The translations under genes and the position numbers were made by a program. Positions 24,433-63,249 of a stretch of 64,000 nt of DNA are shown one piece after another. Numbering within the stretch: position 1 is the stretch's first letter; every line of letters begins with the position of its first letter. This stretch comes from Pseudomonadota bacterium (GTDB lineage Bacteria > Pseudomonadota > Alphaproteobacteria > Acetobacterales > Acetobacteraceae), in contig JAJZFA010000003.1 of the NCBI GenBank assembly GCA_021805565.1, forward strand, positions 62,001-126,000, in the 5' to 3' direction. The notes under the pieces are model-generated. The model was not told the origin of the DNA and ran no database searches. It saw nothing but the letters and a program-made list of their open reading frames with translations.

Positions 24433-25158
24433 ATGACCGCGCTGCCGGTTCTGTGCCTGTGTGCCGCCGTGCTGACCGGATGCGGCACGCTCAGCCGCCT
24501 CGCCGAGGTTGGCCGGCCCCCTGAAATGAGCCCGACCGAAGATCCGACCAAAGACCCGAAATGGCGGCCGCTCACCATGCCCTCGCCGGCACCCCATCCG
24601 CCGCCGCCACAGGCGGATTCGCTGTGGCGCTATGGCTCGCGCGCGTTTTTCAAGGATCAGCGGGCGGCTCAGGTCGGCGACATCGTCACCGTTCTGGTCA
24701 ACATGAACGATTCCGCCAATCTGACGAACGACACCACCGCCAGCCGCATCAGCAACGAAACCGCCGGATTGCCAAACCTGTTCGGCTTGGAATCGATCGT
24801 GCCGAAAACAACCACCATGTCCTCGCTGGTATCGGCCAACAGCGTTAACAGCAATATCGGCAGCGGACAAATTCAACGCAACGAAGCCGTCACCCTGCGG
24901 CTTGCCGGAATCATCACCCAGGTTCTTGCCAACGGCAATCTTGTGGTCGCGGCCCGCCAGGAATTCATGGTCAACAGCGAATTGCGCGACCTGCGGGTGA
25001 CCGGGGTTATCCGGCCGCAAGACATTGCTTCCGACAACACCGTGCCGCATGACCGGATGGCGGAGGCGCGCATTTCCTATGGGGGCAGGGGCAACCTGAC
25101 CGACCTTCAGCGCTCGCGATGGGGCCAGCAGATGATGGATATCATGATGCCATTTTAG
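24433..25158 (+). CDS. flgH: flagellar basal body L-ring protein FlgH
   Basis: Lipobox LTGC; SLWRYGSRAFFKDQRAAQVGDIVTVLV, NLVVAARQEFMVNSELRDLRVTGVIRPQDI, GRGNLTDLQRSRWGQQMMDIMMPF. Confidence 0.9.
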   Translation: MTALPVLCLCAAVLTGCGTLSRLAEVGRPPEMSPTEDPTKDPKWRPLTMPSPAPHPPPPQADSLWRYGSRAFFKDQRAAQVGDIVTVLVNMNDSANLTNDTTASRISNETAGLPNLFGLESIVPKTTTMSSLVSANSVNSNIGSGQIQRNEAVTLRLAGIITQVLANGNLVVAARQEFMVNSELRDLRVTGVIRPQDIASDNTVPHDRMAEARISYGGRGNLTDLQRSRWGQQMMDIMMPF

Positions 25159-25261
25159 TGTCTCGTTTCGCGCATGTCGTCATCGTGTACCGGGACGCTC
25201 GTTCTTTGTTGTCAATGTCCTGCCCCTGAAATTGGTAGGCATTTCAGGGGCAGGACACCAG
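25156..25261 (+). repeat. dispersed two-hairpin repeat, family B copy 1
   Basis: Aligns with 55890-55995 (TAGTGTC.CG.TTCGC...CGGGACGCTCG.TC..TGTTGTCA...CCCTGAAA...AGGCATTTCAGGGGCA). Contains a perfect 17-bp inverted repeat TGTCCTGCCCCTGAAAT (25216-25232) / ATTTCAGGGGCAGGACA (25241-25257). Confidence 0.8.
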
Positions 25262-25289
25262 GCATCGGCCGCAACCGGACGCAGCAGAC

Positions 25290-28629: not shown

Positions 28630-30021
28630 ATGGCATCGCGGGATGGCGCCCTGGCGCGCGCACTGACAGGCTTCGACACCGGCGGATTCCGCGACCGGCT
28701 CGCGGCCCTGGTCGCGATTCCCAGCACGTCGCAGGACCCCGCTCACGCTGGCGACGTACGCCGATATCTGACGGACGCAATCCAGCCGTGGCTGCGCCGT
28801 ATGGGCTTCACGGCGGAAATCCATCCAAATCCGGAACCTGGATTCGGCCCTATCCTATTCGCCGAACGGCTGGAAGGTCCCGATCGCCCCACAATTTTAA
28901 CATACGCACATGGCGACACCGTGCTCGGCCTGGATGAACAGTGGCGCCCCGGCCTATCCCCGTGGACGCTGACCGAGGACGCGGGTCGCTGGTACGGCCG
29001 CGGTTCGGCGGACAACAAAGGCCAGCACGCGCTTAATCTGACCGCGCTGGACGCCGTGCTGGCCGAACGCGACAACGCGCTGGGGTTCAACCTGAAAATG
29101 ATCCTGGAAACCAGCGAGGAACGCGGTTCGGCCGGCTTGCGGGCCTTCGTCGCCGCTCAGGCGGACCGATTGGCGGCCGATGTGCTGATCGCCAGCGACG
29201 GCCCCCGGGCGATGCCGGACCTGCCCACCATCGCCACCGGCACCCGCGGCACCTACCATTTCGATCTGGTGGTATCTTTGCGGCCGGGCGGCGTCCACTC
29301 CGGCCACTGGGGCGGCCTGACAACGGACCCGGCGATCGTCCTGAGCCACGCGCTGGCATCGGCGATGGACCGGCACGGCAAAATTTTGGTACGCGACTGG
29401 CTACCCGCGAACGGCGTGCCGGCGGCGATCCGCGCGGTGCTGAATGGCTGCCAGGCCGGCGGTGGCGGCGAAGCGGCCAGCATCGACCCGGACTGGGGCG
29501 AACCGGGTTTGACACCGGCCGAGAAAATCTATGGCTGGAACAGCTTCATCATACTGGCACTGCTGTCCGGCCAGCCGGCCAACCCGGTTAACGCCGTGGC
29601 CCCGGACGCCCGCGCCCATTGCCAGATACGCTATACGACCGACAGCGATCCAGCCGGCTTCGAGGCGGCCCTGCGCCGGCATCTGGACAGCAACGATTTC
29701 CACGCCGTGCGCATCGAAAACGCCGGTGTCCGCATGCCGGCCAGCCGCACAGATCCTGGCCATCCATGGGTTCGCTGGGCTGCCGCCAGCATGGAAAAAA
29801 CGCTGCACACGCACGTCCAGATCATTCCCAATTCGTCCGGCGGGCTGCCGGGGGATGTGTTTGTGGATTACCTCGGTGTGCCGCTGGTATGGATCCCGCA
29901 CAGCTACAACGGCTGCCAGCAGCATGGCCCCAACGAACACCTGCCGATTGCATCCGCCAGGGAGGGTCTGGCTGCCTTCGCGGGCCTGTGGTGGGACCTG
30001 GGCGAACCGGGCACGCCGTAA
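28630..30021 (+). CDS. M20 family metallopeptidase
   Basis: ILTYAHGDTVLGLDEQW, GRGSADNKGQHALN, ETSEERGSAGL; stop TAA at 30019-30021 coincides with first bases of a family A repeat. Confidence 0.85.
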   Translation: MASRDGALARALTGFDTGGFRDRLAALVAIPSTSQDPAHAGDVRRYLTDAIQPWLRRMGFTAEIHPNPEPGFGPILFAERLEGPDRPTILTYAHGDTVLGLDEQWRPGLSPWTLTEDAGRWYGRGSADNKGQHALNLTALDAVLAERDNALGFNLKMILETSEERGSAGLRAFVAAQADRLAADVLIASDGPRAMPDLPTIATGTRGTYHFDLVVSLRPGGVHSGHWGGLTTDPAIVLSHALASAMDRHGKILVRDWLPANGVPAAIRAVLNGCQAGGGGEAASIDPDWGEPGLTPAEKIYGWNSFIILALLSGQPANPVNAVAPDARAHCQIRYTTDSDPAGFEAALRRHLDSNDFHAVRIENAGVRMPASRTDPGHPWVRWAAASMEKTLHTHVQIIPNSSGGLPGDVFVDYLGVPLVWIPHSYNGCQQHGPNEHLPIASAREGLAAFAGLWWDLGEPGTP

Positions 30022-30136
30022 GGCAACGCTGGCAAATAAGTGCGTCGGCACGCCAGCAAAGTTGCCGTGCAAAACCTGAGCTTGGGGATTGCCCGACGCT
30101 GCCGCTCGTAGCGATTATTGTAGAGCAATTCCTGAG
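30019..30136 (+). repeat. dispersed two-hairpin repeat, family A copy 1
   Basis: TAAGGCAACGCTGGCAAATAAGTGCGTCGGCACGCCAGCAAAGTTGCCGTGCAAAACCTGAGCTT...; aligns with 47108-47225, 63133-63249 and the complement of 61992-62108. Confidence 0.85.
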
Positions 30137-47107: not shown

Positions 47108-47225
47108 TAAGGCAACGCTGGCAAATAAATGCGTCGGGACGCCAGAAAATTTGCCCTATAAAACATTAGCTTAGAGCCTGCTCGACGCTGGCGTTTCTAG
47201 CGGTTATTGTCGAGCAAGTCCTAAG
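47108..47225 (+). repeat. dispersed two-hairpin repeat, family A copy 2 (most diverged)
   Basis: TAAGGCAACGCTGGCAAATAAATGCGTCGGGACGCCAGAAAATTTGCC...CTTAGAGCCTGCTCGAC...GTCGAGCAAGTCCTAAG; perfect arms TGCTCGAC/GTCGAGCA and CTTAG/CTAAG. Confidence 0.82.
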
Positions 47226-55193: not shown

Positions 55194-55892
55194 ATGGCGG
55201 AAGATTGTCACATTCTGGTCGTCGAGGACGATGCCCGTTTGCGGGAGCGTTTGGCGCGGTATCTGTCTGGTGAGGGGTTCCGGGTGACCGCCGCCGCCGA
55301 TGCGGCCGAGGCGCGAACGCAACTGCGGGCGATCGATCCCGACCTGATCGTGCTGGACGTGATGATGCCGGGCGAAAGCGGCCTGGACCTGACACAGTCG
55401 CTGCGGCTGGGTGCCGGTCACGACATGCCCATTCTGCTGCTGACCGCGCGGGGTGCGCCGGAAGATCGCATCGCCGGGTTCGAGGCCGGGGCCGACGATT
55501 ATCTGGGCAAGCCGTTCGAGCCGCGCGAACTGGTGCTGCGGATCCGTTCACTGTTACGCCGGGCGCCGGCGCCCGTGCCGCATGCACCGGCCGGGCCGGT
55601 GCGAATCGGCGAAGCGACCTTCGACCCCGATCGTGGCGAACTCACAGATGCCAGCGGGCCGGTTCGGCTGACCGGCGGCGAGGCGGCGCTGCTGACCGCG
55701 CTGGCGCGCAAAGCGAACGAGGTGCTGTCTCGCGAAGAAATCGCCGAGGCGCTGGGCATGGACGATTCGGGCGAACGCGCGATCGACGTGCAGGTGGTGC
55801 GCCTGCGCCGCAAGATCGAGGCCGATCCCCGGGAGCCGCGCTTTTTGCACACGGTTCGCGGCCGCGGCTATATCCTTAAACCGGGCGTCTAG
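55194..55892 (+). CDS. OmpR-family two-component response regulator
   Basis: VVEDDARLRERLARYLSGEGF, DLIVLDVMMPGESG, LLTARGAPED, ADDYLGKPFEPREL; winged-helix C-terminal domain. Confidence 0.93.
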   Translation: MAEDCHILVVEDDARLRERLARYLSGEGFRVTAAADAAEARTQLRAIDPDLIVLDVMMPGESGLDLTQSLRLGAGHDMPILLLTARGAPEDRIAGFEAGADDYLGKPFEPRELVLRIRSLLRRAPAPVPHAPAGPVRIGEATFDPDRGELTDASGPVRLTGGEAALLTALARKANEVLSREEIAEALGMDDSGERAIDVQVVRLRRKIEADPREPRFLHTVRGRGYILKPGV

Positions 55893-55995
55893 TGTCCCGG
55901 TTCGCAAATGCCTGCATCCCGCGCCGGGACGCTCGATCCCTGTTGTCAGAGGTTTGCCGGACCCTGAAACGGGCAGGCATTTCAGGGGCAATACA
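55890..55995 (+). repeat. dispersed two-hairpin repeat, family B copy 2
   Basis: Homologous to 25156-25261; stems GTCCCGG (55894-55900)/CCGGGAC (55924-55930) and CCCTGAAA (55962-55969)/TTTCAGGG (55980-55987). Confidence 0.8.
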
Positions 55996-56000
55996 ATAGA

Positions 56001-61991: not shown

Positions 61992-62108
61992 CTAAGCCCA
62001 TGCGCAACAATTATCGCTTCGGATCGCGGTGTCAGGCATGCCCTAAGCTCATGTTTTGCTCGGCAACTTTGCTGGCGTGCTGACGCACTTATTTGCCAGC
62101 GTTGTCTG
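61992..62108 (-). repeat. dispersed two-hairpin repeat, family A copy 3 (inverted)
   Basis: Reverse complement GACAACGCTGGCAAATAAGTGCGTCAGCACGCCAGCAAAGTTGCCGAGCAAAACATGAGCTTAGGGCATGCC... aligns with the other copies. Confidence 0.83.
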
Positions 62109-62211
62109 ACCTGGGCGTTCGTCGAGGCCGGAGCGGACCCAGAGATGCGGGCGAGCGTGCTTGAAGCCCGTACAGCCGCGCGGATCGGGTGGAGAGGGAT
62201 CGCGCGTCTAT

Positions 62212-62262
62212 CGAAAAACAGAAGCCGGCGAAAAACAGAAGCCGGCGAAAAACAGAAGCCGG
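62212..62262. repeat. three tandem copies of a 17-bp unit (CGAAAAACAGAAGCCGG)
   Basis: Exact triplicate read directly; unit length not divisible by three. Confidence 0.92.
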
Positions 62263-62459
62263 TTTGGCGAGGAGTTTGAGGCAGGCCATTGGAGAAATCC
62301 GGCGCCACGGTTTTGGTCAATCGGATGAAATCTCCAAATTCGCCAAATTTCCTGTTGCGCCGCAGGAACTGGAAGCCCAACATTAACGCAAGTTTATCGT
62401 TAAAATGACGTAGGCTGGTCGGCTCGCGACATTGATCGCGTTGACATATGCTTGCCTGA

Positions 62460-63132: not shown

Positions 63133-63249
63133 TAAGGCGACGCTGGCAAATAAGTGCGTCGGCACGCCAGCAAAGTTGTCTTGCAAAATATGAGCTTACG
63201 GGTTGCTCGACGTTGCCGCTTGTAGCACTTATTTTCGAGCAAGCCCTAG
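63133..63249 (+). repeat. dispersed two-hairpin repeat, family A copy 4
   Basis: TAAGGCGACGCTGGCAAATAAGTGCGTCGGCACGCCAGCAAAGTTGTC...TTGCTCGA...TCGAGCAAGCCCTAG; aligns across its length with copies 1-3. Confidence 0.85.

Follow-up and report, generated by a model that had tools for sequence, protein, structure and literature searches.

The window, by which we mean the whole 64,000-nucleotide stretch analysed here, carries four copies of a dispersed repeat that we term family A, the first of which starts exactly at the TAA stop codon of a gene for an M20-family peptidase (Table 1). An earlier note on this DNA had described a four-copy repeat here, and all four copies are present, though with ends about 3 bp away from those it had given; they prove to belong to a far bigger family of about 80 copies in the genome, a number derived from searches. 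The family A core pattern matches the window four times against 0.31 expected, and no shuffle reached four.

Table 1. Positions of family A copies and of other features in the window
Feature	Position	Strand	Remarks
M20-family peptidase gene	28630..30021	+	Pfam PF01546; TAA stop doubles as left target triplet for copy 1
Family A copy 1 (subfamily A1)	30022..30132	+	111 bp, TNA flanks excluded; in element orientation left flank TAA (30019-30021), right flank TGA (30133-30135)
Copy 1, M1 hairpin	30022..30066	+	Outer stem, 3-nt AAA bulge, middle stem, AAATAA internal loop, apical stem
Copy 1, M2 palindrome	30085..30132	+	
Family A copy 2	47111..47221	+	Perfect TAA duplication (47108-47110 and 47222-47224)
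Family A copy 3 (subfamily A2)	61996..62106	-	In element orientation left flank TCA, right flank TTA
Family A copy 4 (subfamily A1-like)	63136..63246	+	Flanks TAA (63133-63135) and TAG (63247-63249)
Other repeat of about 110 bp, one copy	25156-25270		Hairpin-linker-hairpin
Other repeat of about 110 bp, other copy	55890-55998		Hairpin-linker-hairpin
Short tandem repeat near copy 3	62210-62265		About 3 units

The family A unit and its distribution

Over its length of exactly 111 bp the unit comprises, in order, the 45-nt hairpin M1, an A-rich linker, a fixed TTA and the 48-nt palindrome M2; when 33 copies drawn from several genomes are aligned, they form an ungapped block of 111 columns. Following the TNA triplet, the exact M1 reads GGCAACGCTGGC-AAATAA-GTGC-GTCA-GCAC-GCCAGC-AAA-GTTGCC, after which come the linker GTGCAAAACATGAGC, TTA, M2 in the form GG..palindrome..CC, and a TNA triplet again. 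A separate hairpin thus forms at each end of the unit. The inner hairpin agrees with the description in the earlier note and has a single-stranded DNA fold of -13.9 kcal/mol (z = -4.2). Two subfamilies are set apart by M2, the loop being GCTGCCGCTTGTAGCGATTATT in A1 and ACTGCAATCCGAAGCGATAATT in A2. An integron attC site, the foot of which follows the pattern RYYYAAC/GTTRRRY, was dropped as a candidate, the foot here being GGCAAC/GTTGCC and no cassette being present.

The window's genome (G000; 4.49 Mb in 64 contigs, from an uncultured relative of acetic-acid bacteria) contains 82 sites that match the first 33 nt, i.e. the hairpin pattern, with at most three mismatches, against none for a reversed control pattern, and BLAST gave at least 47 family A matches (among 40 candidates scored); the genome search with one copy that the earlier note had suggested thus yielded many further copies. 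Family A is a short, non-coding unit with fixed ends and many dispersed copies, as is characteristic of a MITE. In a survey of 59 genomes, including the window's own, it was found in five of the 32 other genomes of the same genus (Acetobacteraceae MAGs) and was absent from all 26 genomes outside the genus. Across 85,462 species genomes the exact degenerate pattern matched only three MAGs (338R_metabat_61, Umea_bin-06648 and RH-23may17-181), all titled Acetobacteraceae, and the plasmids, phages and viral contigs that were searched gave no match. Eight distinct copies in one congener (G028) lie only 1-4 bases apart, which points to a recent burst in that lineage; within G000 the median pairwise differences are 24 for A1 and 13 for A2, which makes A1 the older subfamily. 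We found no paper on family A in the literature searched.

Target-site duplication and stop codons

TNA stands on both sides of 46 of the 69 scored copies, and the two flanks are identical in 38 of these 46 (TAA/TAA in 24, TTA/TTA in 12 and TCA/TCA in two), whereas 20,000 shuffles of the flank pairing averaged 20.6 such matches, with 34 as the highest value (p < 5e-5). The TNA flanks of copies in other species match in 17 of 23 cases. Whatever the outer pair, the inner triplet remains TTA; in copy 1 this triplet, immediately 5' of M2, has mutated to TTG. The M20 peptidase gene adjoining copy 1 is also present in congeners, where nine orthologues have the same C-terminal residues (..WWDLGE(P/A)GTP or nearly so), and in none is the stop followed by the element. 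The matching 3-bp flanks and this unoccupied orthologous site together show that family A inserts at TNA with duplication of the 3 bp, and that the moved unit comprises M1, linker, TTA and M2.

On one of the two strands any TNA reads as a stop codon (TAA and TGA directly, TTA and TCA by their complement), so that an insertion at a stop codon keeps the stop intact by way of the duplication, and this offers a straightforward explanation for how such elements can build up at the ends of genes. About a quarter of the copies (13 of 57) lie on the stop of a coding-like frame, the background figure for TAA sites in the window being 35 of 429 (p = 0.0016), an excess that loss of within-gene insertions would inflate and that is hence not evidence of active targeting.

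Stem covariation between lineages and decay of individual copies

Across the 33 diverse copies 94% of cells pair, and two-sided changes are seen at 13 of the 30 pairs. The middle stem of M1 occurs as GCTGGC/GCCAGC, GCCGAC/GTCGGC and GTCGGC/GCCGAC, its outer stem as GGCAAC/GTTGCC and GGCAGC/GCTGCC, and the arm variants of M2 (GGGATTGCCC, GGGCATGCCC, GGCCCTGTCC, GGGCCTGTTC and GGGCTTGTTC) each have a largely complementary partner. The covariation check proposed in the earlier note gave a score of 0.266 against 0.158 in shuffles (reached by none of 500) and 0.05-0.09 in a control with the partner slid; as relatedness is not preserved in the shuffles, more weight belongs to the slid control and to how many distinct lineages there are than to the 0/500. 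The stems therefore covary strongly between subfamilies and species.

A different picture is obtained for the individual copies in G000. Every pair offers one GU-type and one AC-type change, of which selection at the RNA level would favour the former, and the observed stem changes are at parity (16 GU-type vs 20 AC-type), likewise in M2; recovery by similarity search biases the set of copies, without effect on this ratio. The change per site, with subfamily-diagnostic columns left out, is 0.030 in stems, 0.034 in unpaired positions and 0.038 in the linker. The parity, along with a stem rate like that of unpaired and linker positions, indicates that inserted copies decay as ordinary DNA. Structure is thus kept in the source elements, where it would serve mobility, and not at the insertion sites. 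The selection on structure suggested in the earlier note accordingly holds for the source lineages and fails for individual copies. Its wobble argument fails as well: the stem GGCGAC/GTTGTC of copy 4 is real, but represents two independent one-sided decay changes and no evidence of selection. Pairing may matter during mobilisation, or else template correction might renew it. Setting source lineages against decaying copies makes it possible to tell selection for mobility apart from selection acting where a copy sits, two things that are often confused in the description of structured repeats as regulatory RNAs.

Two other accounts of the pairing need to be weighed here. Stable hairpins, stem covariation and the many copies directly 3' of gene ends would all be expected of the RNA-active repeat raised as a possibility in the earlier note, if selection maintained every copy in place as a terminator, mRNA stabiliser, small RNA or riboswitch-like element; the GU/AC parity, with no strand-specific G-U tolerance in individual copies, the similar rates of change in stems and elsewhere, the scattered presence across the genus and the absence from the one orthologous site compared across species render it very unlikely, and an Rfam search with family A gave no match. 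Quasi-palindrome correction, wherein template switching rather than selection changes both arms together, could explain why both M2 arms change together over about 9 pairs, and collapsed palindromes and a flipped M2 loop show that such events occur here. Yet pure correction should erase the unpaired AAATAA and AAA of M1, which are constant in all lineages while the stems change, and we hold this origin of the covariation to be rather improbable.

Candidate mobiliser and other repeats

Members of the IS1031 group prefer TNA as target and produce an exclusive 3-bp repeat, and the terminal inverted repeat of one of them, ISLrh, is GAACCTGTCTAGTATCT (PMC12016507). The TNA target and 3-bp duplication of family A are those of this group (PMC12016507). 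Transposases of the IS5 family that go with TNA duplications occur commonly in the genus: an element of 932 bp in G028 (NCBIfam NF033580), with the end GTGTCTGACCGAAAATTA, is flanked by TTA/TTA, and others have the terminal repeat GAGCCTGTTTGACA with TAA/TAA, GAGTCTGTCCCAAAAG with TTA/TTA and GTGTCTGTCCGGG with TCA/TCA. The terminal repeat GAGCCTGTTTGACA resembles the right end of family A, GGGCCTGTTCAACA, and the right end found in genome G015, GGGCCTGTTCAACATTAATC, has up to 15/24 identity with the IS ends of the genus (p about 2e-4, uncorrected for multiple tests). The match of the left end to IS5-type terminal repeats is weak (9-12/24), and the left and right outer ends are identical at 9-13/24 positions, which is poor for a MITE; the likeness of left and right ends across subfamilies has a joint permutation p of 0.002, single p values being optimistic in view of the many end comparisons made. 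Shared by both ends is GG....G......AATAA..G, so that the AAATAA conserved as unpaired bases in M1 probably belongs to the terminal repeat. BLAST, exact ends and a position weight matrix recovered no convincing IS with both of these ends from five element-bearing genomes and the IS5-type loci searched; these genomes are MAGs broken at repeats, and a multicopy IS could hence be missing from the assemblies.

We propose, with a probability of roughly 70%, that family A is a 111-bp MITE inserting at TNA and moved in trans by a transposase of the IS1031 group of the IS5 family, an assignment of the mobiliser that we infer from the TNA duplication, the type of terminus and the presence of such ISs in the genus. 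The outer ends would be degenerate terminal inverted repeats (left GGCAACGC..AAATAAGTGC, right GG..TG.C..A.AATAATCG), at which a DDE transposase of this group, supplied in trans, would cut. The palindromic ends may matter in transposition, for example as symmetric binding sites for the transposase or as transient hairpins, and such a role would keep only active masters paired.

A composite of two independent insertions, namely M1 and an M2 MITE placed at the TTA of M1, would fit the presence of other tails after M1-like heads (a degraded IS5-like IS at locus L151 and a different palindrome at L277) and of tandem M1 units (63 bp) joined by TTA; however, the outer triplets match (TAA/TAA, TCA/TCA) while the inner one stays TTA, which implies that in most copies the joined form inserted, and we hold the composite origin to be rather improbable. 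Slippage suffices for the tandem M1 units, since CTTAGG is present at both M1 ends when the duplication is TTA. Highly improbable is a further reading, in which a RAYT (Y1 tyrosine transposase) moves REPIN/REP sequences in the form of single-stranded hairpins. It would accommodate the hairpin-linker-hairpin layout, the conservation of unpaired bases beside variable stems, the many copies often adjoining gene ends and the one Y1_Tnp gene in G000, but single-strand Y1 transposition is not expected to leave 3-bp duplications, and these are clear at family A copies. REP and REPIN sequences are defined by GTAG/CGTC tags (PMC3733652), whereas the hairpin foot of family A has neither and its ends are TNA-GG..CC-TNA. 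Furthermore, a search for a RAYT, which the earlier note had advised, gave no Y1_Tnp (PF01797) match in four element-bearing congeners, and the sole RAYT-like gene of G000 is not flanked by family A. Of that note's label "REPIN/MITE", the second half is thus upheld by the 111-bp unit, the TNA duplications, the empty orthologous site and the confinement to one genus, and the first is abandoned.

As a MITE of the IS1031 group, family A would be typical in its TNA target with 3-bp duplication, in its short, non-coding, multicopy unit and in a right end of the G..CCTGTTC type, such ISs being present in the genus; unlike such MITEs, it has left and right ends that are weakly alike, each a separate covarying palindrome, and no autonomous partner was found for it. 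Repeats of the ERIC, RU, RUP and Correia type are small (about 100-150 bp), structured and intergenic, with a transposase presumed to act in trans (PMC10969869). Family A is comparable to these in size class, structure, intergenic location and presumed mobilisation, and differs in its TNA target and in showing no recognised sequence relation to them. Family A is therefore ordinary in kind and unusual for its two covarying hairpin ends: a genus-restricted MITE, on our reading, with an unusually regular terminal structure.

Several copies are rearranged: M2 is collapsed in copies L090, L274 and L283, M1 is fused to the last bases of M2 in L263 and L282, and the M2 loop is flipped in L028, all of which fits palindrome instability. 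Tandem M1 arrays and collapsed copies would have arisen after insertion, through slippage at the palindromes and at the CTTAGG repeats. At L151 (1237-2020, on the same contig, 17 kb past the window) TTA and then a decayed IS5-like element, which ends in TTTAAG, come directly after a degraded M1-like head, with the IS in the usual place of M2; at L277 an M1-like head precedes a different palindrome.

A repeat family commoner than A, termed X, is found at L119:1386-1500 and at about 40 scored places in G028 (L120-L139), with the sequence TA-GAGCGTGATCGCCTGAGGTTGACTTCAACCTCGGGCGTGAATCACCCTCTCAAACAAAGGC-TTA-GACCATGATC..GATCATGGTC-TA and terminal repeats that are clearer than those of A (16/24). 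A left flank shared by copies in G028, considered as part of an autonomous element, was rejected as such since it is family X. Families A and X are unrelated in sequence and share a layout of hairpin, 3-nt 3' bulge, A-rich linker, TTAG and palindrome, so that selection for this architecture may have been convergent or ancient. It is conceivable, though unlikely, that the genus harbours a class of small transposons in which both ends need to form hairpins in order to be moved by a DDE-type transposase, the TNA duplication being ordinary. At L147 (1139-1350 and 2290-2406) an intact IS5-family IS (300 aa transposase, TTA/TTA) lies beside a palindromic repeat of a third kind (ACCAACGGCCTGAAATAATGACTCTTCCATTATTTCAGGCCGTTGGT), which in turn is joined to a head of the X type. 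Within the window, the other repeat of about 110 bp reads TTAGTGTC..GTTGTCA, then a CCCTGAAA..TTTCAGGGG hairpin, and the unit of the tandem repeat near copy 3 is GAAAAACAGAAGCCGGC.
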